Shown here piece after piece: positions 4,045-20,623 of a stretch of DNA of 64,000 bases. The translations under genes and the position numbers were made by a program. The notes under the pieces were generated by a model that saw only the letters and a program-made list of their open reading frames with translations, had not been told where the DNA came from and searched no databases. The first letter of the stretch is position 1; the number at the start of each line of letters is the position of its first letter. The stretch spans positions 1 to 64,000 of the forward strand of contig JAAYDT010000008.1 of the NCBI GenBank assembly GCA_012729145.1, written 5' to 3'. The stretch comes from Synergistaceae bacterium (GTDB lineage: Bacteria > Synergistota > Synergistia > Synergistales > Thermovirgaceae).

Positions 4045-4209
4045 AGAAATCCACGGCTTCGGGATATACTGTCTCCCAGGACAGGAAGCGACATCGATTT
4101 CGAGGCCGGAAAGAATCTCCTTCCTGAACTGGAAGAGCTGGACAAACGTCTGGAAGGGGTCCAGGGGGCTTTAGTGAAAGGAGTTTTGTATGAGCATAAA
4201 CAGGTTTAA
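4045..4209 (+). pseudogene. Remnant of a second trehalose-phosphatase gene
   Basis: The translation in this frame, ending at the TAA of 4207-4209, contains FEAGKNLLPELEELDK, then GALVKGVLYEHK. This lines up with FEAGKEFLPVLNKAEELLP and GVLIQRKRFS of the intact phosphatase downstream. It therefore looks like an internal piece of a paralogous or ancestral otsB. No HAD motif DxDGT or GDD is found around it, and the frame runs into a stop just where the family would continue with its FS-x-HYR segment. The remnant supplies the ribosome-binding site (AAAGGAG) and start codon of the functional gene, which begins inside it. The upstream part of the open frame (from 3943) shows no recognisable similarity. 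Confidence 0.55.
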
Positions 4210-5035: not shown

Positions 5036-5065
5036 AATCGTTATCTAAAGGAAACTGCTGTTCTG

Positions 5066-5656: not shown

Positions 5657-5695
5657 GGTCCCACCCCCGGATAACATTGATCACCCTCAACCAAA

Positions 5696-5724
5696 ATAAT
5701 GATAATAATTATCATTCTGGTCAA
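5696..5724 (-). promoter_or_regulatory. Sigma-70-type promoter of the methyltransferase gene
   Basis: Read on the minus strand, TTGACC (5724-5719) is followed by a 17-base spacer and CATTAT (5701-5696). The spacer is occupied by the Fur palindrome, an arrangement typical of direct repression by occlusion. It lies 40 bases upstream of the preferred ATG. Confidence 0.6.
5698..5716. promoter_or_regulatory. Fur box (ferric uptake regulator operator)
   Basis: AATGATAAT-A-ATTATCATT is a perfect 9-1-9 palindrome that contains the core 7-1-7 Fur recognition sequence TGATAAT-N-ATTATCA without mismatch. It sits between the promoter hexamers of the methyltransferase gene. A related FUR-family protein (Zur, PerR) would have a similar but not identical site; the exact core match favours iron-responsive Fur. 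Confidence 0.8.
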
Positions 5725-5832
5725 CACCCAGGCCGCTGAGAACAGTCGCTGCATGGGGATCATTCATGCAGGATGACCTTTTCCTCTCCAAATGGCTAGA
5801 TCAGGAATTGCCATCGGGGAAAAGTTTACTTT

Positions 5833-6261
5833 TCAGGCCAAAATCACGGGATCACCGGGTTGGACCTTTCCTCCCTTTTCCACCCTCAAGAAGTACCCCT
5901 TTTCAGGCAGGAGGCACCAGCCCCTGTAATCGTAGGAGTGAGGCTCTCCAGGCTTTTTCCCTTTTTCCACGACGATCAGAATTACACTCTCTCCTATTTT
6001 CATGGTCTGTCCTGGAGAAAGGTCTTCCGGAAGTCCGGCTATAACAAGATTTTCTGCCAGGGATCCCGGGGGAAAGGGGAAACCGGCACTGTTTTCAGCC
6101 TCGGAAATATCCTCTGACCTCAGAAGGCTTACCTGTCTTTCCCCCATCCCGAAATGCCCGTCACCATTTATTCCCTTCCCCTTGACGAAGTGAGCAGCTT
6201 CCATTTCTGTTTTCGGCTTCTGCCGGTCCTTGCCTGCGCAGACGGCGATCACTTTAGGCAT
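5833..6261 (-). CDS. Stand-alone MOSC domain protein
   Basis: At 142 residues the whole protein is one MOSC domain, the sulphur-carrier fold of molybdenum-cofactor sulfurase C-termini. It shows GINGDGHFG, then RQVSLLRSEDI, then a SLAENLVIAGL segment and the closing VQPGDPV. Small MOSC proteins are often found with molybdenum or tungsten cofactor enzymes, and a tungsten-type AOR is encoded elsewhere in this window, but a link between the two is inference. The gene lies upstream of the Fur-controlled methyltransferase on the same strand, with that gene's own promoter in between, so they are probably separate units. I see no clear promoter in the short divergent gap before the MliC-like gene. 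Confidence 0.82.
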   Translation of the reverse strand: MPKVIAVCAGKDRQKPKTEMEAAHFVKGKGINGDGHFGMGERQVSLLRSEDISEAENSAGFPFPPGSLAENLVIAGLPEDLSPGQTMKIGESVILIVVEKGKKPGEPHSYDYRGWCLLPEKGYFLRVEKGGKVQPGDPVILA

Positions 6262-6352
6262 GAAGATTCTCCTTCCAGGATCTGTTGTTCCAGAACACGA
6301 TCATAGGCAATAATACTCCCGGGAGATAGGATCTAGCGGGGAGGGTCTGCTG

Positions 6353-6670
6353 ATGAGAAGGTCCGCTGTAGCTATTGTATTGTTGTCACTCGTGATATTC
6401 ATGGTCTTTTGTGATGCAGGAGCTGGCGAAGCGCCGGAAGACACTCTTTTCACCTATGACTTTTCCGGTCTGGTTTTCGAAGTACGGTTCATAGAGGGTG
6501 CAGTGATCCTCTATCTTCCCGATGGCCCTCTGACGCTACCCCAGGGGATATCTGCGTCAGGGGCAAGATACACTGACGGGTCGACCACCTTCTGGATCAA
6601 GGGTGACGACGCCCACCTGGAGATCAACGGATCTTTGGTCGGGAAGAAAACAGATGTACCGCAGCAGTAA
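6353..6670 (+). CDS. Secreted MliC-like (C-type lysozyme inhibitor) domain protein
   Basis: An N-terminal signal peptide (hydrophobic run through about residue 20) is followed by a small domain of about 75 residues. Its second half, ASGARYTDGSTTFWIKGDD, matches the characteristic MliC/PliC motif of membrane-bound inhibitors of C-type lysozyme. The usual cysteine near the start of the domain (Y-x-C-x-x-G) is replaced: the matching stretch reads TYDFSGLVF. The only cysteine, in MVFCDAG, is in a poor lipobox context, so periplasmic or weakly lipid-anchored location are both possible. The ATG at 6353 has GGGGAGGG ahead of it. The predicted role, protecting the cell wall from lysozyme, is known for the family; here it is inferred from one motif. 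Confidence 0.7.
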   Translation: MRRSAVAIVLLSLVIFMVFCDAGAGEAPEDTLFTYDFSGLVFEVRFIEGAVILYLPDGPLTLPQGISASGARYTDGSTTFWIKGDDAHLEINGSLVGKKTDVPQQ

Positions 6671-6762
6671 ATCGTCACTTTTACCTGTTGGCCATCGGAT
6701 GCTCTCCGGACGAGGCAGACAGGCCTGAGATACCGGGTCTTTGGCTTTCCGTGTCATTTTCC

Positions 6763-7236
6763 TCAGGGCTCGTTTTTCTTCAAGATCACCATTACGATAT
6801 CGCTCCCGGAAGAATAGGGGGAGCCTTCTTCATCCAGGAGCCCCAGGGAGGAAGCCTCCTTTTCCAGGATCTTTCTCGTTCCAGGTGCCACTCCGTTACC
6901 ATTCCCGACCCTGGCGGATATGAATACCGAGGGGGACCAGTCAGGGCTAATGATCCCGTAAGCGATGGCCCTCTCATTCAAACCCTCGCCGACGGGATCT
7001 CTCCCCAGATAGTTAAGCAGGTCCCCGTAATCGATCTCGCTAGGCCATCTCCCTCTCTCGGAGAAGAATACCGCGGAAGCACTCCTGAGGGTCATCAGGT
7101 CGGCCACTATCCTTGCGGCTACAGCCTTGCTTCTGGCGTCGCCATAGACAGCGAACAGGCTGCCTGAAAGGATGCCTATGATCAGGATCGTTATCAGAAG
7201 TTCAGTAAGTGTGAAGCCCTTTTCCCCTCTTGTCAT
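6763..7236 (-). CDS. Type IV pilin-like protein (prepilin)
   Basis: The N-terminus MTRGEKG|FTLTELLITILI is a canonical short class-III signal: prepilin peptidase would cut after Gly7 and methylate Phe. Glu at position +5 of the mature protein and a 20-residue hydrophobic helix follow. The remaining ~125 residues form a small globular domain with no cysteines. I chose the ATG at 7236 because it gives the standard 7-residue leader; the open frame extends further upstream but that part looks non-coding. No other pilus, secretion or prepilin peptidase gene is nearby, so this is an orphan pilin or pseudopilin (GspG/H-like size) served by machinery elsewhere. Confidence 0.85.
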   Translation of the reverse strand: MTRGEKGFTLTELLITILIIGILSGSLFAVYGDARSKAVAARIVADLMTLRSASAVFFSERGRWPSEIDYGDLLNYLGRDPVGEGLNERAIAYGIISPDWSPSVFISARVGNGNGVAPGTRKILEKEASSLGLLDEEGSPYSSGSDIVMVILKKNEP

Positions 7237-7324
7237 GGAAGGATCCCCTGGAATTGTTGAATTTTTGCACCCTGGGAGGATATTAACGTGCCGGGAGGGT
7301 TTTGTCATCCCGGGGACTCTGCTC

Positions 7325-7333
7325 TGCTATAAT
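7325..7333 (+). promoter_or_regulatory. Extended -10 promoter for ppiB
   Basis: TGC followed by TATAAT (7328-7333) is a perfect extended -10 element, 60 bases upstream of the cyclophilin start. A TTGTCA lies 20 bases upstream, too far for an ideal -35, which extended -10 promoters do not require. Confidence 0.55.
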
Positions 7334-7392
7334 TATTTGCCTTGGGGGAGACCGGACCTTCAGATCTTCCAGTGAATAATGGAGGTGTAGGG

Positions 7393-7899
7393 ATGATCAG
7401 GCTGAAGACAAGCGAGGGCGACATCCTGCTAGAGATGTTCGAGGAAAAGGCCCCGAAGACGGTAGAGAATTTCCTTAACTATGTCAAGACCGGACACTAT
7501 GACGGGACCATCTTTCATCGGGTGATCGACGGATTTATGATCCAGGGGGGCGGTTTTGACGAGACGATGAGTCAGAAAGCAACAGAAGAGCCTGTTGAGA
7601 ACGAGGCCTCTAACGGGCTAAGGAACGAAGCCTACACTATTGCCATGGCCAGGACCCAGGACCCGCACTCTGCTACGACCCAGTTCTTCATCAATGTGAA
7701 GGACAACCACTTTCTGAACTTCACATCACCTGATGTCAGGGGGTGGGGTTATACCGTGTTCGGGAAAGTGATCGAAGGACATGATGTGGTCGACAGGATC
7801 AGGTCTGTCGAGACCTGCAGTCGTGCCGGTCTCGACGACGTCCCCGTTGAACCCGTAACAATAATCAAGGCTATTGTGGAGAAGGAAGAAGAAAGATGA
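7393..7899 (+). CDS. ppiB: Peptidyl-prolyl cis-trans isomerase, cyclophilin type
   Basis: The 168-residue protein is a bacterial cyclophilin: FHRVIDGFMIQGG carries the catalytic Arg-Phe pair region, AMARTQDPHSATTQFFIN is the signature core, and GYTVFGKVIEG follows. It has no signal peptide, so it acts in the cytoplasm on proline isomerisation during folding. The ATG at 7393 has GGAGG with suitable spacing; an in-frame upstream ATG at 7342 has no ribosome-binding site and would add non-conserved residues. The stop overlaps the next start by 4 bases. One small deviation is WGY in the loop where many bacterial members have CGY. Confidence 0.93.
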   Translation: MIRLKTSEGDILLEMFEEKAPKTVENFLNYVKTGHYDGTIFHRVIDGFMIQGGGFDETMSQKATEEPVENEASNGLRNEAYTIAMARTQDPHSATTQFFINVKDNHFLNFTSPDVRGWGYTVFGKVIEGHDVVDRIRSVETCSRAGLDDVPVEPVTIIKAIVEKEEER

Positions 7900-8438
7900 A
7901 GATCAGCCCCTTCCCGGAAGTGGACTCGATCCTCAGGCAGGCCGGTCTATGCGATTGTCTATGGGTGGCCCCATCGTCCATGACAGTTTCCCAGTGGGTG
8001 AGGATGAAGTGCATGTTCGGGTGTCCGGATTACGGAAAGAACGCCTCCTGCCCTCCCCATGTCCCCTCCGTGCAGGAATGCAGGGAGCTGCTGGGTGAGT
8101 ATTCCCATGCTGTTCTGATCCACCTGGTCTGTGATGTACACTCTGAAGAGAGAGGATCGTGGTGCGCAAGTTACCAGAAGTTGCTTGTGGAGGCGGAGAG
8201 GCAGGTCTTCCTGGCGGGACATGAAAAGGCTTTCCTTCTCTCCTTCGACAACTGCAACCTCTGCGGAGAGTGCACAGCCGATCCCAGGGACTGCAGGCTC
8301 CCCTACATGAGGAGACCGACCATGGAGGCCTTCGCAATAGACGTCTACTCCAGTGTGAGAAGGCTGGGGTACTCCATATCGGTCAAGAAGGACAGGGAGG
8401 AGAAGCCCGACCGTTTCGCCCTTCTGCTGGTGGAATAG
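7896..8438 (+). CDS. DUF2284 predicted metal-binding protein
   Basis: This 180-residue protein carries the cysteine pattern of the DUF2284 family: CMFGCPDYGKNASCPPHVPS near the N-terminus and CNLCGECTADPRDCRLP near residue 125. About ten cysteines suggest binding of one or two Fe-S clusters or zinc. The function of the family is unknown; it is common in anaerobes and archaea. It is translationally coupled (ATGA overlap) to the cyclophilin and is followed 9 bases later by tex, so the three genes are probably one transcript. Confidence 0.82.
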   Translation: MKISPFPEVDSILRQAGLCDCLWVAPSSMTVSQWVRMKCMFGCPDYGKNASCPPHVPSVQECRELLGEYSHAVLIHLVCDVHSEERGSWCASYQKLLVEAERQVFLAGHEKAFLLSFDNCNLCGECTADPRDCRLPYMRRPTMEAFAIDVYSSVRRLGYSISVKKDREEKPDRFALLLVE

Positions 8439-8447
8439 GGTTATCTG

Positions 8448-10613
8448 ATGGCTGACTCCAGTCATGCATCGATCATTGCGGCAGAACTCGGGATAAGCGA
8501 GGAGAAGGTCCTTGATACGGGCGCCCTTTTGCAGGAAGGGTGTTCGGTGCCCTTCATTGCCCGTTATCGCAAGGAGGCTACCGGCTCACTGGACGAGGTG
8601 GCGGTACTCGCCATAAGGGACAGATTTGCACAGCTGGAGGAGTTGGACAGGAGAAAGGCTGCCGTGATCAGATCCCTGAGGGAGAGGGACCTTCTCACAG
8701 AGGAACTCGAGAGAGCTGTTGCAGTAGCTCCGAACATGACAGCCCTGGAGGATATCTATCTCCCCTTCCGTCCGAAGAGAAGGACCAGGGCGTCCATCGC
8801 GCTGGGAAAGGGGCTGAAGGGTCTGGCAGACGCCCTCGTGGATGCCGCCGCGGGAGAGAGAACTGACCTTGATCCCCTCTCAGAGGCAGCCAGGTATATT
8901 GACGGAGGCAAGGGCGTGAAGTCGGCAGATGATGCCCTTGCGGGAGCAAGGGATATAATTGCAGAGAGGGCCAGCGAGGACAGAAGGGTCAGGGTCGCAC
9001 TCAGGGCAGTCTTTGCTCGCAACGGAAGGCTATCGTCGAAGGTTGTCAGGGGCAGGGAAGAGGAAGGTCTGAAGTACAGAGACTACTTCGATCTCGAAGA
9101 GCCAGCCAGATCCACTCCCTCACACAGGATCCTGGCCGTCTTCCGAGGGGAGAGAGAGGGCTTTCTCACCGTATCGGCAAGGCCGCCCTCTGAACTTGCC
9201 TTCCTGGAGATGGAGAGGGTGTTCATCAAGGCCGAAGGTCGGGCAGCCGATGAAGTCAGAAAGGCCATCAGGGATGGCTACGTGCGGCTCGCGGGACCCT
9301 CAATGGAGACTGAGCTAAAGAATGCCCTGAAGGTAAGGGCAGACCGGGAGGCCATAGGGGTCTTCTCCTCCAACGCAAGGGAGGTCCTGATGGCTCCCCC
9401 GCTCGGAGCCTTTCCTGTGATGGCCATCGACCCGGGTATACGGACCGGGTGCAAGCTGGTGATCCTCGATGCCAGGGGGCGGCTAGTTCTTGATGATGTG
9501 ATATTCCCCTTTTCGGGCAGGAAGGCCGAGGAGGAGGCCAGGAGAAAGGTATGCCGCATTCTCGAAAAACACCCGGTAAAAGCAGTCGCGGTGGGTAATG
9601 GAACTGCGGGAAGGGAGACCATGGCCTTCCTGCAGGGGATGGAACTTCCGGGCAATCCCAGGGCGATCCTTGTGAACGAAAGCGGTGCCTCGATCTACTC
9701 GGCTTCGAAAACCGCTCGGGAGGAGTTCCCTGACAGGGACGTAACAGTCAGGGGATCCGTATCGATAGGGAGGCGTCTCCAGGATCCTCTGGCCGAGCTG
9801 GTAAAGATCGATCCCAAATCCATCGGCGTCGGTCAGTACCAGCACGATGTGGACCAGAAGAAGCTGACGCAGTCACTGGAGGATGTGGTTGTCTCCTGTG
9901 TGAACGCCGTAGGGGTGGAACTGAACACCGCGAGCCCTCACCTCCTGTCCTACGTATCAGGTCTTGGACCCGGCCTGGCGGCTAACATTGTCGCATGGAG
10001 AGGATCCATGGGGCCTTTCAGATCGAGAGCACAGCTGCGCGAGGTGTCGCGTCTCGGCCCCAGAGCCTTTGAACAGTCCGCGGGGTTCCTAAGGATCAGA
10101 GGGAGCGTGAACCCTCTCGACGCAAGCGCTGTACACCCTGATCATTACGTTATTGTCGAGCGGATGGCCTCCGACCTGGGGTGTTCCGTCGAGGATCTCC
10201 TTGAGAACGAGAGCATGAGAGAGAGGATAAATGTTACTCATTATGTCTGTGAAAAGGCGGGCATACCTACCCTGAGAGATATCATGTCCGAATTGGCCAA
10301 GCCTGGCCGGGACCCCAGGAAGAATTTTGAAAGCGTGGAGTTCTCTCCTTCCGTACATGGGATAGAGGACCTGAACCCGGGGATGGAGCTTACAGGAGTG
10401 GTCTCCAACGTGACCGCCTTTGGCGTCTTCGTGGATGTGGGTGTCCACCAGGACGGGCTGGTACATGTCAGTCAGATGTCTGATCGTTTCGTGAAAAAAC
10501 CGTCGGACCTGGTAAAGGCAGGGCAGAAAGTCCGGGTCTCTGTACTGGAGGTAGACCTGCAGCGTAGAAGGATATCCCTGGCCATGAAAGGCGTCCGCCA
10601 GGACCCTTCCTGA
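8448..10613 (+). CDS. tex: Tex-family S1 RNA-binding transcription accessory protein
   Basis: At 721 residues the protein has the complete Tex layout: helix-rich N-terminus with PFIARYRKEATG near residue 38, an RNase H-like YqgF domain starting with AIDPGIRTGCK near 326, a helix-hairpin-helix region with GLGPGLAANIV near 506, and a C-terminal S1 domain (about 640-712) containing GVFVDVGVHQDGLVH. Tex binds nucleic acids and affects transcription and stress survival; its precise activity is still debated in the literature. It starts 9 bases after the DUF2284 gene. Gap 10614-10717 then separates it from the efflux operon. Confidence 0.95.
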   Translation: MADSSHASIIAAELGISEEKVLDTGALLQEGCSVPFIARYRKEATGSLDEVAVLAIRDRFAQLEELDRRKAAVIRSLRERDLLTEELERAVAVAPNMTALEDIYLPFRPKRRTRASIALGKGLKGLADALVDAAAGERTDLDPLSEAARYIDGGKGVKSADDALAGARDIIAERASEDRRVRVALRAVFARNGRLSSKVVRGREEEGLKYRDYFDLEEPARSTPSHRILAVFRGEREGFLTVSARPPSELAFLEMERVFIKAEGRAADEVRKAIRDGYVRLAGPSMETELKNALKVRADREAIGVFSSNAREVLMAPPLGAFPVMAIDPGIRTGCKLVILDARGRLVLDDVIFPFSGRKAEEEARRKVCRILEKHPVKAVAVGNGTAGRETMAFLQGMELPGNPRAILVNESGASIYSASKTAREEFPDRDVTVRGSVSIGRRLQDPLAELVKIDPKSIGVGQYQHDVDQKKLTQSLEDVVVSCVNAVGVELNTASPHLLSYVSGLGPGLAANIVAWRGSMGPFRSRAQLREVSRLGPRAFEQSAGFLRIRGSVNPLDASAVHPDHYVIVERMASDLGCSVEDLLENESMRERINVTHYVCEKAGIPTLRDIMSELAKPGRDPRKNFESVEFSPSVHGIEDLNPGMELTGVVSNVTAFGVFVDVGVHQDGLVHVSQMSDRFVKKPSDLVKAGQKVRVSVLEVDLQRRRISLAMKGVRQDPS

Positions 10614-10633
10614 CGTTCTTTAAAAAGTGGCTT

Positions 10634-10649
10634 AATGTTCCTTAACATT
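10634..10649. promoter_or_regulatory. Palindrome upstream of the efflux operon (candidate operator)
   Basis: AATGTT-CCTT-AACATT is a perfect 6-4-6 inverted repeat about 70 bases before the TolC-like start. It could be bound by a dimeric repressor such as a TetR or MarR member; no such regulator is adjacent. It is not followed by a T-run, so it is unlikely to be a terminator for tex. Confidence 0.3.
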
Positions 10650-10717
10650 TCTCAACCTCACCTTCAGTCTCCCGATAGTAAACTTCTGGAAATCATGAAT
10701 GGATCGGGTGAAGTCCA

Positions 10718-12016
10718 ATGCTGACGATGAAAAGGTTCCTCCAGTCAATCTGCTTTCTGATCCTGTTCTCTCTCGGCGCTGCCGCATACGCTTCAGGTGC
10801 ACCGCCGGGTTCGATCGTCCTCACCCTGGAGGATTGCATCAATACGGCGATCTCAGGTCATCCCGACCTGGCAGCAGGGAGGTCGGATCTCGAAGCCTCC
10901 GAGGCCAGAGTTGGGCAGGCCCAGTCGAGTCGTTACCCTTCCCTGGGATTTTCCACGGGTTTTTCTGAAAGGTCCTCCGGTGGGACTGGACCGTCGGAAG
11001 GTTCCTGGTCGAACGGTATCACGCTGTCACAGCTGGTCACCGACTGGGGCAGGACGCACGCGACGGTCAGAAGGAGCCTGCTGGATGTTGACAGCAGAAC
11101 CCTGGCCCTTGAGGCGAAGCAGTCTGACGTGGTGTTCGAGGTCACGAGAGCCTATTTCCAGCTTCTTAGATCCGTGAAGGACCTGGAGGTCGCCGAGGAG
11201 ACCCTGGCGTTGAACGAGGTCAGGCTGGAGCAGGCAGAAGCCTTTTTCAAGGTCGGGAAGGTTTCAAAGTACGATGTGACTGCCGCCCAGGTTTCCAAAA
11301 GCAATGCAGACCTCGCGCTGATACGTGCACGCACCTCCAGGAAGGAAGCCATGACCGCTCTGAAGGCAGCTATGGGCCAGGCGGGAGCCCCTGACTTCAG
11401 GGTCGTCGATGTGGAAGGTCACGAAACAGACGTCAGGGACGACGATGTTCCCTCCCTTGATGAGGCGATAGGCATCGCCCTTGAGAACAGGCCCGACCTC
11501 CTGGCTTACCAGGTAGCCCTTCGGTCCGCCGAGACCTCCGTTACCCTTGCCAGACTGGATAACGTCCCCCAGCTTCATCTTTCAGGGAACTACGGGTGGG
11601 GGAATTCCGGTTTCTGGGGCGGTGACAGCTGGAGGGCGGGGCTGACCCTTTCTTTTTCCCTCTATGATGGAGGACTGCAGAGAGAGAAGACAAGAGAAGC
11701 CATGGCCGGCCTGGATGGGGCCGAGGCCAGACTGGAGGCTTACAGGCAGATCGTGGTCAGCGACGTTACCCAGGCTGTTCTGGCAGCCTCAGACGCTTCT
11801 GAGGCCGTCTCGGCAGCCTCAGAGGGGCTGCGGATGGCAACAGAGAACCTTGAGATCGCAACCGGGAGGTACAGGGTAGGCGTAGGATCACCACTGGAGG
11901 TCTCTGATGCCACCAGAAATTACACCGAGGCCAAAGCTGCCTGGTATGCGGCTTTATACGATCGACTTACGGCCCGGGCGGCCCTGAAGAAGGCCATGGG
12001 AGTGACAGCAAGATGA
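10718..12016 (+). CDS. TolC-family outer membrane efflux protein
   Basis: The 432-residue product has a signal peptide (hydrophobic to about residue 23, cleavage near AYASG) and two outer-membrane-efflux repeats of alternating long helices and short strands, with LTLEDCINTAISGHPDL opening the first and LDEAIGIALENRPDL opening the second. It should form the outer membrane channel of a tripartite pump with the adaptor and ABC genes that follow. It overlaps macA by 4 bases (ATGA). A second in-frame ATG at 10727 is an alternative start. Substrates of such MacAB-TolC pumps include macrolides, peptides and heme precursors; nothing here decides which. Confidence 0.92.
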   Translation: MLTMKRFLQSICFLILFSLGAAAYASGAPPGSIVLTLEDCINTAISGHPDLAAGRSDLEASEARVGQAQSSRYPSLGFSTGFSERSSGGTGPSEGSWSNGITLSQLVTDWGRTHATVRRSLLDVDSRTLALEAKQSDVVFEVTRAYFQLLRSVKDLEVAEETLALNEVRLEQAEAFFKVGKVSKYDVTAAQVSKSNADLALIRARTSRKEAMTALKAAMGQAGAPDFRVVDVEGHETDVRDDDVPSLDEAIGIALENRPDLLAYQVALRSAETSVTLARLDNVPQLHLSGNYGWGNSGFWGGDSWRAGLTLSFSLYDGGLQREKTREAMAGLDGAEARLEAYRQIVVSDVTQAVLAASDASEAVSAASEGLRMATENLEIATGRYRVGVGSPLEVSDATRNYTEAKAAWYAALYDRLTARAALKKAMGVTAR

Positions 12017-13182
12017 AGAAGAACAGGAAGTTCCTGGCAGCTTTTCTTGTTTTTGTGGCAGCGGCCGGTATCTGGTACTACCGGTCACGTTCTTCTGACG
12101 TGCCCGTTGTCCAGACCACCACCGTCGTTCGGGGAGGTATCGTCAAGACCGTTTCTGCGACGGGATCCCTGAATGCGGTCAACACTGTGAACGTTGGAGC
12201 CCAGGTATCGGGAACGATCAGGAAGATACACGTGAATTACAACTCCCTGGTCCAGAAAGGGGATCTTCTTGCAGAGATAGACCCCTCTCTTCTGGAGGCC
12301 AACATCAGGCAGTCAGAGGCCAGCGTACTCTCCGCCCTGGCCTCCCTCCAGGAGGCAAGGGCAAACCTGGCCGAGGCAAAAAATAACCTGGAACGGAACA
12401 GAGAGCTTTTCTCCAGGGGTTATATAGCGGCGATGGAGCTGGATCAGTCACAGACAGCCTACGAGACAGCACTTTCCCGAACCAGAAGCTCTGAAGCATC
12501 CCTTTCCCATGCCAGGGCAGACCTCGATTACAGGAAGATCAACCTGGGGCACACCAGGATAGTATCCCCCATCGACGGGGTGATCATTAACCGGGAGGTC
12601 GATGAAGGGCAGACGGTCAACGCAAGCCAATCGGCCCCGACGCTCTTCACAATCGCCGAGGATCTGTCCAGGATGCAGGTCGAAGCCAACATTGACGAGG
12701 CCGATATTGGCCTGATCAGGCAGGGTCAACCTGTACAGTTCACCGTTGACGCTTTCCCTGATGAGTCTTTCGTGGGTTCCGTCAAGGAGGTCCGACTTGC
12801 GGCCGCAACAACCGACAACGTGGTGACCTACACGGTCATCATTTCTGTGGAGAACGAGAAGAAGATCCTGATGCCGGGCATGACCGCCAACGTATCAGTA
12901 ATAGTGGAGAAGAAGGATAACATACTGAAAGTCGCCAGTTCCGCCCTGAGATTTCGGCCTTCAGCGGATTCCGGCGGATCACAGTTCAGGGGGACGGCCC
13001 TCTGGACCCTTGAGAAGGGTGAACTGGTTCCCCATCTTGTCAAGACGGGGATCTACGACGGAATGTTCACCGAAGTTGAGGGGGAGGGGCTGGTCGAGGG
13101 CATGGAGGTTGTCACCTATATATCCAGCGCCTCGGAAGGAAGGTCATCCAGCGCTTTCGGGTTCGGAGGCCGGCCCAGGTGA
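12013..13182 (+). CDS. macA: MacA-type periplasmic adaptor of an ABC efflux pump
   Basis: The 389-residue protein has an N-terminal membrane anchor (about 8-24), a barrel-sandwich/lipoyl half starting VSATGSLNAVNTVNVGAQVSG, a helical hairpin (about 90-170), and a closing lipoyl half, then beta-barrel and membrane-proximal domains. It bridges the inner-membrane ABC transporter and the TolC-like channel. The gene sits in the order channel-adaptor-ATPase-permease. The C-terminus is rich in Ser and Gly and has no known motif. Confidence 0.92.
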   Translation: MKKNRKFLAAFLVFVAAAGIWYYRSRSSDVPVVQTTTVVRGGIVKTVSATGSLNAVNTVNVGAQVSGTIRKIHVNYNSLVQKGDLLAEIDPSLLEANIRQSEASVLSALASLQEARANLAEAKNNLERNRELFSRGYIAAMELDQSQTAYETALSRTRSSEASLSHARADLDYRKINLGHTRIVSPIDGVIINREVDEGQTVNASQSAPTLFTIAEDLSRMQVEANIDEADIGLIRQGQPVQFTVDAFPDESFVGSVKEVRLAAATTDNVVTYTVIISVENEKKILMPGMTANVSVIVEKKDNILKVASSALRFRPSADSGGSQFRGTALWTLEKGELVPHLVKTGIYDGMFTEVEGEGLVEGMEVVTYISSASEGRSSSAFGFGGRPR

Positions 13183-13196
13183 CGGGGTGACGGAAG

Positions 13197-13898
13197 ATGA
13201 CGATGAACGGAATAGTCAGGGTTGAAAGCATCACCAAGATATACAGCCTGGGCGATGTCAAGGTTGAAGCCTTGCGGAAGGTCAGTTTCTCGGTAGAGGC
13301 CGGAGAATTCCTCTCCATCATGGGAGCTTCAGGTTCAGGAAAGTCGACAATGATGAACATCCTGGGGTGCCTTGATACGCCGACTGGGGGACAGTATTTC
13401 CTTGAAGGGCATAACGTCAGTCGCCTGTCGGGGGACGAACTTGCGGACATTCGCAAGCACAAGATCGGTTTTGTCTTCCAGGGTTTCAACCTTCTCCCCC
13501 GGATGACGGCCCTGGAGAATGTAAAGCTTCCCATGCTCTACAACGGAGTACACCCCTCCATGAGGGACAGGAAGGCCATGGATGCCCTTGAAATGGTGGG
13601 ATTGGGTGACAGGGCTAACCACCAACCCCAGCAGCTCTCGGGGGGGCAGCAGCAGAGAGTGGCCATAGCACGTGCCCTTGTTAACGACGCCCCGATCATC
13701 CTGGCCGATGAGCCGACGGGGAACCTGGACAGCAGGACCAGCAAGGACATCATGGATCTTTTCACGGATCTTAACAGGGAGTACGGAAGGACCATAATAC
13801 AGGTCACACACGAGGCAGAAATGGCCTCCTACGGCAAGAGGGTCATCACTTTCCGGGACGGAATGGTGCTGAAGGACGAAAGGACGGAACGTCCATGA
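13197..13898 (+). CDS. macB: MacB-type ABC transporter ATPase
   Basis: This is a 233-residue nucleotide-binding domain with Walker [11 protein letters not shown]-loop in [12 protein letters not shown], signature [15 protein letters not shown], Walker [12 protein letters not shown] and switch His in QVTHE. Its closest families are LolD/MacB/FtsE. In E. coli MacB the ATPase and permease are one polypeptide; here they are two genes overlapping by 4 bases, as is common outside the Enterobacteria. A second ATG two codons in (13203) is possible. Confidence 0.93.
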
Positions 13899-15121
13899 TC
13901 TCGCTTTGGGAAACGTCAAGGATATCCTTCAGGGCCCTGACGGCCAACAAGATGCGCTCTGCACTGACCATGCTCGGGATAATAATCGGTGTTATGGCGG
14001 TCATCATGATGTTCGCCATCGGCTCCGGCGCAAACAGGGAGATCTCCGACAGGTTTTCCAGCATGGGGAGCAACATGCTTACAGTGAGACCCGGGGCAAG
14101 CCAGGGCCCCGGAGGGATCCGTAGCGGGACGGTGAACACCCTTACGGTGGATGATGCCAGGGCCATATCGGAGGAGTGCATGGCCGTGGCATACGCTGCC
14201 CCCGTCTACGGGGGCAGCGCCCAGGTCGTCTACGGCAACCAGAATTGGTCCACATCAGTCACAGGTACCACGCCAGAATACCTCTTCGTCCAGGACTGGA
14301 CCGTTGGATCGGGTATCGTATTCACCGAGCAGGACGTCAGGAGCGCGACCAAGGTCAGCGTTATCGGAAAGACGATAGTGGATAACCTCTTCGGGGGGGA
14401 GGACCCCATAGGGAAGACCATCAGGATAAGGAACGTCCCGGTGGTTGTGGTTGGGGTCCTGGGAGAGATAGGGACCAACCCCATGGGCAGGGATCAGGAC
14501 GATATAATCCTTGTGCCTGTGACGACAGCCCAGAGAAGGCTTTTCAGTTCTTCCAGGTCCGGGTCGGTCTCAACCATTATGGTAAAGGCCCGAAGCTCTG
14601 AACTGCTCAATGCGGCTCAGGACCAGGTAGAGTCGCTCCTGAGAATGAGACACCGCGTCCGTAAAGGGGAAGAGGACGATTTCTCCGTAAGGAACATGGC
14701 ACAGATGGTGGAGAACGCCAAGGCTGCAACAAGAACGATGACCATGCTTCTCACGGCAGTGGCGGGAGTCTCCCTTCTCGTGGGCGGGATAGGGATAATG
14801 AACATCATGCTGGTATCCGTCACCGAGAGGACCCGGGAGATAGGCATCAGAATGGCTCTCGGGGCGAAGACAATAGATATAAGGCTTCAGTTCCTGGTCG
14901 AGGCTTTGATGCTATCCCTGTTGGGGGGGACGACGGGGATCCTTCTCGGGGTGGCTGGTGCCCTTTCCATATCAAGGGCCTTCGGCTGGGCGGTGGAGGT
15001 GTCACTGTTCTCGATCTCCCTGGCTTTCGGTTTTTCTGCCTTCGTAGGGATATTTTTCGGGTACTACCCGGCCTGGAAGGCATCGCTGCTGAATCCAATA
15101 GAAGCGCTCCGGTACGAATAA
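13895..15121 (+). CDS. macB: MacB-type ABC transporter permease
   Basis: The 408-residue protein has the MacB/FtsX layout: one membrane helix near 24-42 (ALTMLGIIIGVMAVIMMF), a large periplasmic MacB_PCD domain of about 230 residues, then three helices. The motif SVTERTREIGIRMALGA before the third helix is the FtsX-family coupling motif. It pairs with the ATPase just upstream to drive substrates from the periplasm through the TolC-like channel. It is the last gene of the operon; a strong terminator begins at the base after its stop codon. Confidence 0.93.
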   Translation: MISLWETSRISFRALTANKMRSALTMLGIIIGVMAVIMMFAIGSGANREISDRFSSMGSNMLTVRPGASQGPGGIRSGTVNTLTVDDARAISEECMAVAYAAPVYGGSAQVVYGNQNWSTSVTGTTPEYLFVQDWTVGSGIVFTEQDVRSATKVSVIGKTIVDNLFGGEDPIGKTIRIRNVPVVVVGVLGEIGTNPMGRDQDDIILVPVTTAQRRLFSSSRSGSVSTIMVKARSSELLNAAQDQVESLLRMRHRVRKGEEDDFSVRNMAQMVENAKAATRTMTMLLTAVAGVSLLVGGIGIMNIMLVSVTERTREIGIRMALGAKTIDIRLQFLVEALMLSLLGGTTGILLGVAGALSISRAFGWAVEVSLFSISLAFGFSAFVGIFFGYYPAWKASLLNPIEALRYE

Positions 15122-15155
15122 GGCAGCGGGAAGGTTCTCCCCGCTGCCTTTCTTT
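15122..15155 (+). terminator. Rho-independent terminator of the efflux operon
   Basis: GGCAGCGGG and CCCGCTGCC form a 9-bp perfect stem with a 9-base loop, followed by a T-rich tail (TTTCTTT). It starts immediately after the permease stop codon. Confidence 0.9.
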
Positions 15156-15185
15156 CCTGAATGATCCGATTCCGACGGTATGAGC

Positions 15186-15332
15186 CTACCAGGGGCAGTT
15201 CGCGTTCTTGAGCCTTATGCTCGGTTCCACGATCTTTCCATCGAGGAGATCGGCCTTCAGGAAGGCTCCCTCAGGGAAACGCCAATGTGCAACGCCGTCC
15301 TTGAAGACGAGCCGTACAGGCAAATCTCGCAT
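15186..15332 (-). CDS. 48-residue orphan protein
   Basis: I do not recognise this protein. It begins MRDLPVRLVFKDG and ends LKNANCPW, with alternating hydrophobic and charged residues suggesting a small beta-rich fold; there is one cysteine and no signal or membrane segment. It is taken as real because the ATG at 15332 has a GAGG ribosome-binding site, and 35 bases further upstream there is a minus-strand promoter with perfect TATAAT, 17-base spacing and TTGACT. The open frame extends further upstream, but that part contains the promoter and is not coding. It faces the end of the efflux operon across a 64-base gap. Confidence 0.6.
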   Translation of the reverse strand: MRDLPVRLVFKDGVAHWRFPEGAFLKADLLDGKIVEPSIRLKNANCPW

Positions 15333-15366
15333 ATTTCCAACCTCGTTCCTTTCTTGATATTGACGT

Positions 15367-15395
15367 ATTATAGCACCTCCGGAAAAGCCAGTCAA
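15367..15395 (-). promoter_or_regulatory. Near-consensus sigma-70 promoter for the 48-residue ORF
   Basis: On the minus strand TTGACT (15395-15390), a 17-base spacer and TATAAT (15372-15367) match the sigma-70 consensus at 11 of 12 positions. The transcript would start about 25 bases before the ATG of the small ORF, leaving room for its ribosome-binding site only. Confidence 0.85.
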
Positions 15396-15478
15396 ACAGA
15401 CTAACAAGAGTGTTTTTAACATACTTCCAGTTATCCATTGTATGCTTTTACTACCTTGTGATCCCTTGAAAGAATCCA

Positions 15479-15538
15479 AGGATGGATCCTGTCCAAAAAT
15501 GCACCCTGTCCGAGGATGGACTTGGTCCAATGGGTGCA
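15479..15538. repeat. Tandem 16-bp direct repeat with flanking inverted repeat
   Basis: AGGATGGATCCTGTCC (15479-15494) and AGGATGGACTTGGTCC (15513-15528) are imperfect direct repeats 34 bases apart. TGCACCC (15500-15506) and GGGTGCA (15532-15538) are an inverted pair overlapping the second copy. They lie between the promoter of the small ORF and the pseudogene. They could be operator sites or simply decayed sequence. Confidence 0.35.
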
Positions 15539-15594
15539 AGATCCGTGCCAGACATTATTATCAGTCAGTATAGGCGGACAGGAGTGATGATCAG

Positions 15595-16424
15595 GTGTTG
15601 AAGGAACCTGTTCTGATCAACGTTTTTCAGGGTCTGGGAACAACCTTTCCCTGGCGGAAGAGATAGTTGCGGGACTGCTCCAGGAGGGTATCGCAGCCCA
15701 GCTGAGACCCCTTGAGAGGAGTGACCCGGGGGATACCCGTCAGGCCGGGACCATCGGGCTTGCATTCCCTGTTGCGATGTTCTCAACCTACCCCTTTGTC
15801 TGGGACTTTGTAGAGAACCTCCCCGACGGGAACAACAAGGATATTTTCATGCTCGACACCCTCGCGGGGTTAAGCGGCGGAATCGTCGGCCCCCTGAAAA
15901 AAGCCGTATCCGCCAGGGGGTACTGTCCTACAGGAGCTACGGAGATACGTATGCCTTCGAACTATGCAAGGACCGATCATGAGAAGCCCGAAGACGAGCG
16001 TCTGCGCTCTAAAGGACGCGAGAAGGCGGCATCCTTTGCGAAGGATCTTGCTTCGGTAAGGGCTTCGTGGCCGTCGATACCCCTTTTGCCGGACCTTGTC
16101 AAAAGGGTGGGCCGTGATCCCCGGAGCGCTGCATAGAGGGCAATACGCAGGAAGTTCCCCATCTCGGTCGACGTCCGGAAGTGCACAAGGTGCGGCTTGT
16201 GCTCGAAGGTTTGCCCAGTGAGGAACATTATCCTGGAGGGCTTTCACGGTTTTGGGGATCGCTGTCTTTCCTGCCAGCGATGTGTATCTCTCTGTCCGGA
16301 GGAAGCTATTGGGGTACAGGGACGGTCTTTTGTCCCATACCGGGGGCGGACCTCGAAAAGATGCTCGATATGGCTTGCAATGGCCACTAGTTCGGAAGGT
16401 CCCGAACCCTGCATCGAACTCTGA
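15595..16424 (+). pseudogene. Decayed EFR1-type protein (flavodoxin-like domain plus two 4Fe-4S motifs)
   Basis: The gene reads from a GTG at 15595 (GGAG upstream) as LKEPVLINVF, then needs a one-base shift in the T-run at 15623-15627 to continue SGSGNNLSLAEEIV, a flavodoxin phosphate loop. The frame then runs through AFPVAMFSTYPFV and MPSNYA, hallmarks of EFR1 proteins, to a TAG at 16134-16136. It resumes in the same frame with CTRCGLCSKVCP and CLSCQRCVSLCPEEAI, two intact ferredoxin motifs, and ends at 16424. The total of about 275 codons is the normal EFR1 size. Two independent lesions argue for a pseudogene rather than a sequencing error. The intact ancestor would be a cytoplasmic electron carrier. 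Confidence 0.8.
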
Positions 16425-16569
16425 TGCACCGATCGGTCATGAGTGCTATAATTCCGCCTGTTGGTGTCATTTTTTGATCAGGGATTACAGTGCTGTCTCC
16501 TGGGGTTCCCCTTCAGGAAACCGTTTAGGAGTGGCAGATATCAGAGGAGACGAAGGGGGGGAACCTGGC

Positions 16570-16854
16570 GTGTCTGAAAAATGGAAGGACGAACTTACCG
16601 AACAGCTGACAAAAGCGATCCTGTCCCTCGAGACTAGCGAGGAGGTCTACGATTTCCTCGAGGATGTGGCGACCATCGGAGAGATACGGGCTTTGGCCCA
16701 GAGGCTGGAAGTGGCCAGAAGGCTCAACGAAGGCGAGACATATCCCGTAATTGCCCAGCAGACCGGTGCCAGTACTGCTACGATCAGTCGGGTGAAAAAG
16801 TGCCTCGACTATGGGGCTGACGGTTACAAGTCGGTCCTGGAAAAGATGCAATAG
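16570..16854 (+). CDS. TrpR-like (YerC/YecD family) DNA-binding protein
   Basis: The 94-residue protein contains a TrpR-type helix-turn-helix: LAQRLEVARRLNEGETYPVIAQQTGASTATISRVKKCLDYG is the conserved core, described here in two overlapping parts (LAQRLEVARRL at about 43-53 and TGASTATISRVKK at about 66-78). The YerC/YecD subgroup lacks known tryptophan binding and its targets are mostly unknown. The GTG at 16570 is chosen because AAGGGGGG precedes it and homologues start close to the SEKWKDEL segment; the frame stays open upstream only by chance. It follows the decayed EFR1 gene by about 145 bases. Confidence 0.85.
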   Translation: MSEKWKDELTEQLTKAILSLETSEEVYDFLEDVATIGEIRALAQRLEVARRLNEGETYPVIAQQTGASTATISRVKKCLDYGADGYKSVLEKMQ

Positions 16855-16883
16855 TGCAGGCCGGATAAACAGGCCTTACCGGG

Positions 16884-16922
16884 ACGGGCATCCCGCCTTT
16901 GCAGCGGAGTGCCCGTTCTTTG
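16884..16922 (+). terminator. Terminator-like hairpin after the TrpR-like gene
   Basis: ACGGGCA (16884-16890) and TGCCCGT (16910-16916) pair around a 19-base loop and are followed by TCTTT. The stem is short and the loop long, so termination would be partial. The ribosome-binding site of the next gene begins at its end. Confidence 0.45.
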
Positions 16923-16941
16923 CAAGGGAGTGATCTCAGCC

Positions 16942-17832
16942 GTGGCAAGTCTCTACAGGTTCTTCGGGTTCGCTCTTCTGGCCATTATGACCTTGATAGT
17001 CTGGGCCTACATAGATCACTGCAGGAACAGGAAGAAGGCCACCAGATACGTTACAGAGAAGCTCCAGATGCCTGGGGTGAATTTTGAAATGACGCGGTTC
17101 GTGAACATGGCAAGGATCATCAGGAGCGCTTCCGAGAGCCTTTTGCTCGTTTTCTTCCTTAAAGACAGGCATATCGAGATCCCCGGATTCAGGCCGGAAG
17201 AAGTGGTGGATATCCCTCCTGACGGTGTTCTGCTTGCGGACCGTGAGAGATCAAGGTCCCTTGTGTATGTGGAAAGAGGTAAAAAGATATTCTTTCTGGA
17301 TATGAAGGATTTTGTCCCCGGGACGATATGCTATGTGAAAAGAGGAACGGGGGGCGTCAAGTTCGGGGAAAAGGAGATACCCTCAAGCAACCGGGACTGG
17401 TTTTTGATCGACAGGACTCGAGGCAGGACCCTCTATCCACCTCTCAGAGAACTTGAGCAGCACCCCGGCGACGGATTCTTCCACCTGCAGGGTATCGCCC
17501 CTACTGAAGGTTTTCTGCTGGACGAGGAGGGAGGACTTCTTCTTGTGGACGAGCAGAGAGGTACTTTTGCATTCCGCAAGAGCGGCAGAGATCTGCTCGA
17601 GGTCTTCTCATCCGGTGACATTATCTCTGTGGAAACAAACGACGAAGACCCCGACCTTCTCGATTTTGAAGTGGGGAGAAAGAGAAAGACCGTCTTCACT
17701 TTCGAGTTCAACGATGCCGGGGAAGCAGCCTACTGGAAAGCTTGGTTCGAAGAGACAAAAAAGGGAAAAACCGGGAGCGGGGAGGATGCCCGGTCGGTCT
17801 TCCTGAAACTGCCCCTTCTCAAGGGTATTTGA
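16942..17832 (+). CDS. Orphan membrane-anchored protein
   Basis: I do not recognise a family. The 296-residue product has one N-terminal membrane helix (GFALLAIMTLIVWAYI, about residues 9-24), a basic cytoplasmic-type flank (CRNRKKATR), and then about 260 residues that alternate charged and hydrophobic stretches, suggesting a beta-rich soluble domain. The last third is acidic (TNDEDPDLLDFEVG) and there are no cysteine clusters or obvious catalytic motifs. The charge pattern places the large domain in the cytoplasm. GTG 16942 is preferred because AGGGAG lies 9-10 bases before it; GTGs at 16909 and 16930 are alternatives. It ends 10 bases from the convergent NYN gene. Confidence 0.7.
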   Translation: MASLYRFFGFALLAIMTLIVWAYIDHCRNRKKATRYVTEKLQMPGVNFEMTRFVNMARIIRSASESLLLVFFLKDRHIEIPGFRPEEVVDIPPDGVLLADRERSRSLVYVERGKKIFFLDMKDFVPGTICYVKRGTGGVKFGEKEIPSSNRDWFLIDRTRGRTLYPPLRELEQHPGDGFFHLQGIAPTEGFLLDEEGGLLLVDEQRGTFAFRKSGRDLLEVFSSGDIISVETNDEDPDLLDFEVGRKRKTVFTFEFNDAGEAAYWKAWFEETKKGKTGSGEDARSVFLKLPLLKGI

Positions 17833-17842
17833 GTTCCAGCGA

Positions 17843-18640
17843 TCATTTCCCTGGTTTTTTCCCCTTGCGCTGCTTGTGGCGGATGAATATGGCCCTGTTC
17901 CCCGACTCGCCCCCGACCGCCCGGGATTCCATCTCGAAAAGCCCAGTTGCCTTGACCAGGGAGCTCAGCTTCCTGAAGCCGTAGTTCCTGGAATCAAAAG
18001 AAGGGGACTGGTTGGAAATATGCTGCCCCACGTTCCCGAGGGCGGCCCAGCCGTCCTCGTCTGCAACGGCGTCCACGCTGTTCCGGAGGAGGTTGGCAAG
18101 TTTTGTATCTCCCCTGAGCATTTTCGGGGCCTGTTTCTTCTTCGCTGCCAGGTCTTCACCAGCAGTATGCTCCGATCCGTCCTCCGCTGACTCCTTTTCA
18201 AGGATCTCCGTGTAAATGAACTTGTCGCAGGCGCTTACAAAGGCGTTGGGAGTGTTCTTCTTGCCGAACCCATAAACGGTGATGCCGCCCTCCCTGATGC
18301 GTGTGGCAAGGCGGGTGAAGTCACTGTCGCTGGATACCAGGCAGAAGCCGTTAAAGCGGTTGGAGTAGAGCAGGTCCATGGCGTCAATGATCATGGCGCT
18401 ATCGGTGGCGTTCTTTCCTACTGTGTAGTGGAACTGCTGGATCGGGTGGATAGCATAAGTCAGGAGGACCTCCTTCCAGCCCTTCAGGTAGGGAGAAGTC
18501 CAGTCTCCGTATATTCTTTTTACGCTTGCTATGCCGTACTTGGCAATCTCGGCGAAAAGGTTCTCGATCACCGAGGGGGAAGTATTATCGGCATCGATCA
18601 GTACAGCGAGGTTCTGTTGTCTTTCGGGTTCCGGGACCAT
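17843..18640 (-). CDS. NYN-domain putative ribonuclease with C-terminal OST-HTH (LOTUS) domain
   Basis: Residues 10-150 form a PIN-like NYN nuclease domain: LAVLIDADNTS gives the first acidic pair, KNATDSAMIIDAMDLLY the second and VSSDSDFTRLATRIRE the third, all acidic residues retained. After an acidic and lysine-rich linker, residues 185-255 form an OST-HTH/LOTUS domain (LLRNSVDAVADEDGWAALG ... NYGFRKLSSLVKATG). This is the LabA/YaiI-like architecture thought to cut or bind RNA; LOTUS domains bind RNA, including G-quadruplexes, in some members. The ATG at 18640 has GGGAGG upstream and is preferred over ATG 18661. No partner gene is evident. Confidence 0.88.
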   Translation of the reverse strand: MVPEPERQQNLAVLIDADNTSPSVIENLFAEIAKYGIASVKRIYGDWTSPYLKGWKEVLLTYAIHPIQQFHYTVGKNATDSAMIIDAMDLLYSNRFNGFCLVSSDSDFTRLATRIREGGITVYGFGKKNTPNAFVSACDKFIYTEILEKESAEDGSEHTAGEDLAAKKKQAPKMLRGDTKLANLLRNSVDAVADEDGWAALGNVGQHISNQSPSFDSRNYGFRKLSSLVKATGLFEMESRAVGGESGNRAIFIRHKQRKGKKPGK

Positions 18641-18689
18641 TTTTCTTCCTCCCTGGTTCATTTTGGCGAGCCAACACGATTATAAGGCA

Positions 18690-19433
18690 TTAGCGACCTC
18701 TCATCAGGGAGACTTCGATCTCTCCAAGCACCTTGTCCACAACAACTGCCATAAGAGCAGCCGGAATAGCACCCTGAAGGACCACAGCGGGGTTATGAGA
18801 GATCAGCCCCGATATTATCGGGGCACCCAGCCCGCCGGCACCTATAGTCGCTCCAATGGTGGCCGTCCCGACGGAGATCACCGTGGATGTTCTGATCCCT
18901 CCCATTATTACCGGTATAGCCACTGGTAGTTCAATCCTGAAAAGGGACTGGAAGGGGCGCATACCCATACCCTTGGCGGCATCGAGCACCTCAGGGGGTA
19001 CCGACATCAGTCCTGTTACGGTATTGTGCAGCACAGGCATGAGCCCGTAAAGGAAGAGAGCAAAAAGAGCCGGAGTGAAGCCGAAACCGAGGAGGGGCAC
19101 GGCGAGTGACAGAACCGCAACAGGCGGGAAGGTCTGCCCGATGGAAGCCAGATCATCGATGACGGGGATGAAGTCCCTGCCTCCCTTTCTCGTTACGACA
19201 ATTCCCCCGGCAACTCCCAGCAGGGTGGATAAAAGTGACGCTAACCCCACAAGAAAGAGGTGCTCCCCCGCCAGTCCCGCCAGGCTCGAACGTTCATAGA
19301 GCACCGTTCTCTGGCCGGGGAAAAGGTACCGAAGGGACCGCTCCCAGGCCGGTTCAGCCAGCAGCATGACCAGCAAGGCAACAGCCATGGCTGTTGCAAG
19401 GGCCCACCTTGAGAGGAGCTTGCCGGATCTCAT
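18690..19433 (-). CDS. Osmoprotectant ABC transporter permease (short, YehW-like)
   Basis: The 247-residue protein has an N-terminal membrane helix and five or six further helices of the ProW/OpuCB type. The EAA loop AAKGMGMRPFQSLFRIELP and the closing ATIGAGGLGAPI are characteristic. Its size matches YehW of the OsmU (YehZYXW) importer of glycine betaine and choline-type osmolytes. The gene overlaps the larger permease by 4 bases. No ATPase is encoded in this operon, whereas OsmU normally has YehX between the permeases. Confidence 0.87.
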   Translation of the reverse strand: MRSGKLLSRWALATAMAVALLVMLLAEPAWERSLRYLFPGQRTVLYERSSLAGLAGEHLFLVGLASLLSTLLGVAGGIVVTRKGGRDFIPVIDDLASIGQTFPPVAVLSLAVPLLGFGFTPALFALFLYGLMPVLHNTVTGLMSVPPEVLDAAKGMGMRPFQSLFRIELPVAIPVIMGGIRTSTVISVGTATIGATIGAGGLGAPIISGLISHNPAVVLQGAIPAALMAVVVDKVLGEIEVSLMRGR

Positions 19434-20623
19434 GACGCCCCTCCAGGCCTGAGTGCGGCGGACAGCCTCCGGAGCAGCCCGTCCGCCGAGAGGGCAAGAA
19501 TCACCGTCGGGATGGCACCAAGCAGGATAAGGTCAGGAGCTGCCTCTCCCAGACCCTGGAAGATGAACTGACCCAATCCCCCTGCGCCTATCAGGGCAGC
19601 TACAGCGGTGTTCCCGATGGTCTGGACTCCTGAGATCCGGACTCCCGTTACAACCACGGGTAGGGCGATCGGCAGTTCCACGTTGAGGAAAAGTTGCAGA
19701 GGATCCATTCCCATCCCTCTTCCTGACTCGATCACGCTTGGGTCTATCATGGAGAAGGCCGACAGGGTGTTGCGAATTATAGGGAGAACAGAGTAGACGG
19801 TCAGAGCGATCAGGGCGGGAGCCCATCCTATCCCCCCTATCCCCATGGAGGCCAGCAGGGGGACCTTTCTTGATGCGACAGCAAGGGGTGCTATCAAGAG
19901 TCCGAAAAGTGCGAGACTGGGTATGGTCTGGAGGGTGTTAACAGCGGAAAGGATGAAGGCTCTTGTCCTCCTTTTCCTGAAAGCTGCAATTCCCAGCGGA
20001 AATCCTATGACCGTCCCCAGGGATACTGCCGAAAAAGACAGGGTCAAATGACGGGAGAGTTCCTGCCAGAAACGGGAGCTCCTGTTTAAGAACTCCACCA
20101 TGAAGGAGAGGCTGTCGAGCTGCCCTGAAAGAAATAGCCCCAAAAGGGCTGCATAGAAACTGAAGCAGATGAAAGTGAAAGATCTTTCCTTCAGCGAGGC
20201 GATACGGCATGAGGACATGATCATGTAGGCGCCAAGAAGGGAGATCCAGGCCCCCGAACCCAACGATACCCTGGCAAGGGGAATATCTCCCTCGAGGATC
20301 TTTGATGACGAAGCACCGGCCTGCCAGAGGATCAGAAAGATCAGGGTCCTTGACAGAAAGGCTGCCGCTGCTGACCTCTGGCGGCTCGCACCCACCATCG
20401 CTGATACAAAAGAAGCAAGTACCAGAACCACAATGGCTAGAACGGGGGTGGAACCAAGAGCCCGGTAGACAGGAAGAGTCGCAGGAGGCGATATCCTGGT
20501 CTCCCTGACCACCAGAAAGGGGAGAAAGGACAGCGCAAAGACAATTACCATGGAACCGGCTATCATTACCCTGTCACGGCGGGGTGGGTTCTCCATAACA
20601 GCCTTCCCGGTCTCTTCACGCAT
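19430..20623 (-). CDS. Osmoprotectant ABC transporter permease (long, YehY-like)
   Basis: A 397-residue permease with about five extra N-terminal helices ahead of the conserved transport core, the same layout and length as YehY (385 residues) of OsmU. The core contains the EAA loop SGRGMGMDPLQLFLNVELP and ALIGAGGLGQFIFQGLG. It should form a heterodimer with the shorter permease. The start is uncertain: ATG 20623 has a weak ribosome-binding site, while an in-frame ATG at 20596 follows GGGAAGG. The binding protein gene ends 13 bases upstream. Confidence 0.87.
   Translation of the reverse strand: MREETGKAVMENPPRRDRVMIAGSMVIVFALSFLPFLVVRETRISPPATLPVYRALGSTPVLAIVVLVLASFVSAMVGASRQRSAAAAFLSRTLIFLILWQAGASSSKILEGDIPLARVSLGSGAWISLLGAYMIMSSCRIASLKERSFTFICFSFYAALLGLFLSGQLDSLSFMVEFLNRSSRFWQELSRHLTLSFSAVSLGTVIGFPLGIAAFRKRRTRAFILSAVNTLQTIPSLALFGLLIAPLAVASRKVPLLASMGIGGIGWAPALIALTVYSVLPIIRNTLSAFSMIDPSVIESGRGMGMDPLQLFLNVELPIALPVVVTGVRISGVQTIGNTAVAALIGAGGLGQFIFQGLGEAAPDLILLGAIPTVILALSADGLLRRLSAALRPGGAS

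Follow-up and report, generated by a model that had tools for sequence, protein, structure and literature searches.

A small-protein family of Synergistota: a strongly promoted single gene in the window and a pseudoknot-type leader in relatives

Sequence comparison shows that the 48-codon open reading frame (ORF) described here, from the minus strand of a 64,000-nucleotide stretch of DNA (the window), is a real gene of a small-protein family that extends across Synergistota. It forms a single-gene unit with a strong promoter, a ribosome-binding site and a hairpin. In many relatives, the gene instead follows a tRNA gene or a local promoter and is preceded by a conserved RNA element that may form a pseudoknot next to the Shine–Dalgarno sequence (SD). 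Tentatively, we read the product as a translation-associated accessory factor that binds RNA and that, in the relatives, would be autogenously controlled through this leader.

The window gene and its signals

The features of the region are as follows:

15395-15390, minus strand: -35 hexamer TTGACT; TTGAC[AT] in 5 of 5 aligned genomes
15375-15367, minus strand: extended -10 element, TGC-TATAAT (TATAAT at 15372-15367); TGnTAnnAT in 5 of 5 aligned genomes
15352-15341, minus strand: purine-rich ribosome-binding region AAAGGAACGAGG, 8 nt ahead of the ATG
15332-15186, minus strand: small-protein gene of 48 codons; ATG at 15332, stop TAG at 15188-15186; core LVxxxxGxxxWxxPEGxF
15120-15150, minus strand: 14-bp hairpin between the small gene and the convergent ABC permease gene
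13895-15121, plus strand: ABC permease gene, convergent neighbour of the small gene, taken by recognition to be MacB-like

Translation of the ORF gives MRDLPVRLVFKDGVAHWRFPEGAFLKADLLDGKIVEPSIRLKNANCPW. The TTGACT-17-TATAAT promoter that had been proposed is present ahead of it; the spacer between the -35 and -10 hexamers is 17 nt, and a TG one base 5' of the -10 makes this an extended element. The claim that the ORF has its own ribosome-binding site was likewise borne out, by AAAGGAACGAGG at its 8-nt distance from the ATG and by the motif GAAAGGAA(A)CGAGGT in all five aligned genomes. Assuming a transcription start near 15360, the transcript would carry a 5' leader of about 28 nt. The hairpin at 15120-15150 has a folding energy of -26 kcal/mol (z = -7.3), equalled by none of 200 shuffles, and is probably a terminator common to both convergent genes, with the better T-run on the plus strand.

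A mechanical ORF list gave a 117-residue frame starting at TTG 15539, which we rejected. The relatives G002, G004, G005 and G008 have in-frame stops near the ATG, and their open frame starts just 2–7 codons 5' of it; ATG 15332 is for this reason the likely start. Further upstream, positions 15499-16387 hold a decayed relative of an intact G002 gene (P0002), which we take, by recognition only, to be of flavodoxin/ferredoxin type. The match runs over three reading frames, and its main piece is 85% identical to the G002 gene.

Across five genomes of the host's family, the 144 nt of the ORF align without an indel, and the changes gather at third codon positions. For the 8 of 10 genome pairs with dS above 0.5, dN was 0.13–0.24; the remaining two pairs, the window against G002 (dS 0.10, dN 0.047) and G005 against G008 (dS 0.14, dN 0.027), are too close to tell. 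The codon pattern shows an ORF under purifying selection that codes for protein. Two congeners, G001 and G003, keep the flavodoxin-type neighbour and the end of the permease gene, and at the junction between them the promoter and the ORF are both absent. The preliminary description had raised the case of an ORF lost behind a promoter that was kept; in the two congeners checked, the two are missing together. Thus, the gene behaves as a cassette of promoter plus ORF, and by this comparison it is dispensable at the level of the genus.

Extent of the family and its promoters

The search for relatives that had been proposed as a check uncovered a small-protein family across Synergistota. Searching with the single sequence gave matches in 23 of 41 genomes at E ≤ 1, most of the weaker ones chance, and in 13 at E ≤ 8.4e-4, both counts including its own genome. 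A 16-sequence profile at E ≤ 0.01 matched in 76 of 185 genomes of the phylum, again including its own, and in 40 of 62 genera, so that the term "orphan" used previously does not apply. The matches reach 49 of the 115 good-quality genomes, and 109 of the 185 are without one. A few of the weakest matches are probably chance; those in G007 and G037 (L158, L159) look spurious by eye and are still inside the tally of 76. When a contig collection was scanned with one peptide pattern, by which distant relatives elsewhere may be missed, 24 loci were found, 21 of them in Synergistota. The others, L118 and L119 (Bryobacterales) and L120 (Petrotoga), are segments of 15–18 residues within larger proteins and were discounted as chance matches; a search of the genomes behind L118 and L120 gave one match each, at the same place as the pattern hit. 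In the scans made, the family is limited to Synergistota.

The member table has 86 rows (80 loci given), of which 78 with E < 1e-4 and an ATG start are counted here as members. The core LV-x5-8-W-x2-P-[ED]-G-x-[FL] fits 69 of the 78, and L8, V9, W17, P20, G22 and F24 are invariant in alignments of 16 and 21 sequences. The window protein has the L-V, W, P, G and F of this core in register near its N-terminus. Members are 39–70 residues long (n = 78; median 52), the value of 70 coming from a frameshifted copy. Multiple matches occur in some genomes, with six in G040 and four in G046.

Profile searches of Pfam-A, NCBIfam, PHROGs (six proteins only) and PADLOC gave no match (best E 0.13), nor did sequence searches of the PDB; PADLOC gave none among 21 members. 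No relative was found in viral contigs with the family alignment (A2), in phages with one relative or in plasmids with the window protein. Searches of the literature did not turn up the family; they took in part of PMC6429828, a study of intergenic regions of Thermovirga lienii (Synergistetes) whose supplementary table could already list the element. Conserved small proteins are thus known as a kind, and this family is absent from the libraries searched. It shares with that kind a short, conserved single-gene unit, strong expression signals and the lack of a domain match, but differs in that, as far as the scans reach, it is confined to one phylum, and in having its own leader in several clades. 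A short, strongly signalled gene absent from these libraries is easily missed by annotation, and Synergistota, a little-studied phylum, gains a well-defined unknown.

The isoelectric point ranges from 4.5 to 11.8 (median 9.4) and exceeds 7.5 in 58 of the 78 members; the other 20 are not basic. AlphaFold2 predicted an almost all-beta meander for the window protein (pLDDT 74) and for a relative (pLDDT 85). The product would be an abundant, soluble, compact all-beta protein. Fold searches with both models (Foldseek, VIA-align) gave no significant match, a result that excludes no fold family. The weak Foldseek matches favour cell-wall-binding hairpin repeats (best E 0.6, none significant), reflecting a likeness to the W/G-rich beta-hairpins of the choline-binding or CROP type. 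However, these repeats are not among the few VIA-align rows, and the family protein consists of one unit and has no signal peptide by eye.

The near-perfect promoter pattern TTGACW-N16-18-TATAAT occurs twice in the window, compared with 0.01 expected from shuffles, and nine times in the 1.78-Mb genome, compared with once for a reversed control pattern. A looser scan (≥9/12) of positions 14000-17000 gave 1 site, compared with 1.4 in shuffles, so that only the near-perfect quality of the promoter is unusual. The sole other near-perfect promoter of the window, TTGACA-17-TATAAT at 45704-45732 on the plus strand, lies before a YlxM-like gene. Of the eight in the genome other than that of the small gene, one precedes a tRNA-Leu/Met/Met operon, and six precede genes that we take, by recognition, to be carA, ylxM (the window site just named), a sodium-symporter gene, an arginine decarboxylase gene, an IclR regulator gene and smpB. 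At the remaining one, L179 (G000:C104:14200), the longest ORF starting in the first 250 nt has 44 codons. The promoter had been considered out of proportion to the size of the gene. Since the other eight near-perfect promoters mostly precede ordinary genes, its strength is notable, but not disproportionate here.

A sigma-70 match of 10–12 out of 12 within the last 150 nt was found upstream of 38 of 43 leaderless members, compared with 57 of 2150 shuffles. These 43 members (E < 1e-4, ATG start, 110 nt or more available upstream; f4 and the leader group, set by hand, excluded) span families f1, f3, f5 and f6 and include close species, hence they are not independent. L121, L091, L070, L151 and L155 fell under 10/12. 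A strong predicted promoter is a family trait of the leaderless members.

tRNA genes and the leader of relatives

In 21 of the 78 members, from families f3, f4, f7 and f8, a tRNA-Asn or tRNA-Cys gene ends no more than 300 nt upstream on the same strand, at a distance of 101–263 nt. The complete run Val-Asp-Phe-Gly-Cys is present in 7 of these 21; others stop at a contig end or contain just one tRNA gene. Because the link is inherited, the 21 members do not represent 21 events. No tRNA was found near the window copy (L057, window 1-20000).

Many relatives have, between the tRNA (or local promoter) and the ORF, first a terminator-like hairpin and then a conserved element. This element consists of a helix, P1, whose loop contains UGGNACCGA, and UCGGAA directly ahead of the SD; UCGGAA can pair with ACCGA as an H-type pseudoknot. 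For the P1 arms of 15 sequences, the native mean was -17.6 kcal/mol, compared with -12.3 kcal/mol when arms were reassorted (0 of 20,000), and each native P1 pair was equalled by at most 11 of 200 shuffles. For nine representatives, chosen by hand and four of them from family f3, the native assignment of arms was the best of 362,880 permutations. A foreign arm nevertheless pairs better than the own arm in 10 of the 15 sequences, and single leader sequences are no more stable than shuffles.

In an alignment of 19 leaders (A5), 88.5% of cells pair, with a covariation of 0.236 compared with 0.160 in shuffles (0 of 500), while the number of pair types was not above shuffles, 85 of 500 reaching the observed value. 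Shifts in A5, of L092 by two columns and of L080 and L081 by one column at the 3' end, lower its pair counts. Five of the eight P1 pairs have changed on both sides. Sliding the register by -2 gave 17 cells with two-sided changes, compared with 14, but pairing of just 50%. The pseudoknot pairing itself is weakly tested, because it is nearly invariant.

A covariance model of the leader, built on seven P1 pairs with the pseudoknot left out and run with stricter filters, matched 29 places in 24 of 185 genomes. Of these, 26 (E ≤ 1.2e-4) lie directly before a family ORF and the remaining 3 (E > 0.01) elsewhere; 19 of the 26 are training sequences and the rest close copies, and the 26 include additional or damaged copies from G040, G046 and G005. 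The model found no leader at the tRNA-linked f4 members and none in the window's genome (G000), placing the window gene outside the pseudoknot-leader subgroup. Rfam at the gathering threshold gave, for 15 loci, only tRNA, with no leader and no T-box. In the leaders of L090, L124, L077, L073 and L123, a CCAGA(A) segment precedes the terminator-like hairpin, and the 5' arm of that hairpin contains its complement, (T)TCTGG; by eye, this segment is a possible antiterminator. A simple terminator finder was positive in only 31 of the 78 members, so that we do not ascribe a terminator of its own to the family as a whole.

Some genomes have additional copies at tRNA sites. In G005, a second, divergent copy in the window's own family (f1) lies behind tRNA-Cys (L063:3737-4131, contig C166). 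Its N-terminus is changed and its leader closely resembles the one found in the distant family f8; the copy possibly represents a transfer at a tRNA-Cys site. L095 (G040) and L072 (G046) have extra copies of leader plus ORF, some behind the 3' half of tRNA-Cys, and in L072 a frameshift affects at least one copy. Elements that use tRNA genes as integration sites leave such a 3' half behind.

Neighbouring genes, compared through 80 ORFs from 21 loci with crude ORF calls, are kept within families. Between families, L077 (f3) and L090 (f9) have two convergent downstream genes in common (82% and 72% identity), so that transfer of a block or shared descent is possible; other likeness of neighbours between families is general ABC-ATPase similarity and one ORF read across tRNAs. 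In L096, L150 and L151, which belong to one clade, the small gene begins about 165–180 nt after an hpf-type frame ends. Pfam detected S30AE domains in L096 only among these three.

Possible functions

Our best guess is that the product is an accessory factor that binds RNA and is linked to translation, a tentative reading based on the basic charge of most members, the location of many relatives at the 3' end of tRNA operons and a leader pseudoknot with strong matches only ahead of this gene. The small protein, basic in most members, would bind RNA near the ribosome; such a role is suggested by the upstream tRNA operon and, at three loci of one clade, the upstream hpf-type gene. In the leader-bearing relatives, the product would bind the leader and thereby limit its own synthesis, feedback control of translation being suggested by the strong leader matches, which lie only before the family's own gene and beside the SD. 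In the window lineage, where the gene is found elsewhere and has no leader, the strong promoter presumably sets the level. The link to translation rests on the relatives, since the window copy has neither a tRNA neighbour nor a leader.

Ribosomal proteins limit their own synthesis by binding leader RNA, and the arrangement in the relatives, a pseudoknot RNA immediately 5' of the SD for a small protein that is basic in most members, resembles this. However, none of the libraries searched linked the family protein to a ribosomal protein, no Rfam leader reached the gathering score at the 15 loci, the window copy is leaderless and the feedback is putative. T-box leaders offer another comparison, in that the UGGNACCGA of the relatives recalls the UGGN bulge and lies near tRNA genes and a terminator-like hairpin. 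In the relatives, however, the terminator comes before the motif rather than after it, Rfam gave no match, and the family gene belongs neither to the aminoacyl-tRNA synthetase genes nor to the amino-acid genes. Should the protein bind its leader RNA, tRNA production would have a new autoregulated factor linked to it; should it not, the pseudoknot becomes a candidate riboswitch.

A fuller scenario, which we regard as unlikely as a whole, is that of a phylum-specific translation-associated protein whose gene originated as the last part of a tRNA operon, with a new class of H-type pseudoknot leader from which the window lineage escaped. In the tRNA-linked ancestor, expression would have come from read-through or from a local promoter behind the terminator, and the pseudoknot would be recognised by the product or by a tRNA-related signal. 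In the window lineage, the gene would then have become free of leader control, relocated and acquired its own strong promoter.

We consider a function outside translation roughly as probable as a translation-associated one. The family could equally be an abundant small protein with a role in stress, metal handling or as an enzyme accessory, the tRNA site being merely strongly transcribed or prone to integration; we give this account, too, somewhat less than even chances. It fits the leaderless clades, which adjoin varied genes and have their own promoters, and the extra copies in L095 (G040), which by eye follow the 3' half of tRNA-Cys, but a generic passenger gene would not ordinarily carry a pseudoknot, and four families show the tRNA link.

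Half of a toxin-antitoxin pair or another mobile selfish module would explain the clean presence or absence of promoter plus ORF within the genus as well as the six matches in G040 and four in G046. Such modules are improbable, given that no neighbour is widely common among the 80 neighbouring ORFs of the 21 loci and that neither PADLOC (21 members) nor the plasmid, phage and viral-contig searches gave a match.

The preliminary description had offered either an abundant small protein or a regulatory RNA. The small protein stands, and its abundance is probable from the selection on the ORF and the promoters of the family. A regulatory or dual-function RNA in which the ORF is incidental is very improbable: a strong promoter and a hairpin do flank a short transcript, but the codon-position pattern, the dN/dS values and an amino-acid core kept phylum-wide argue for the protein, and the ORF region folds with no excess structure over shuffles (z = -0.18). 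For the window copy, we rejected the RNA on the codon evidence and this ordinary folding. Least probable of all is a leader peptide controlling a downstream gene, to which a short ORF behind a promoter would correspond, but the next gene in the window is convergent, with the hairpin in between.
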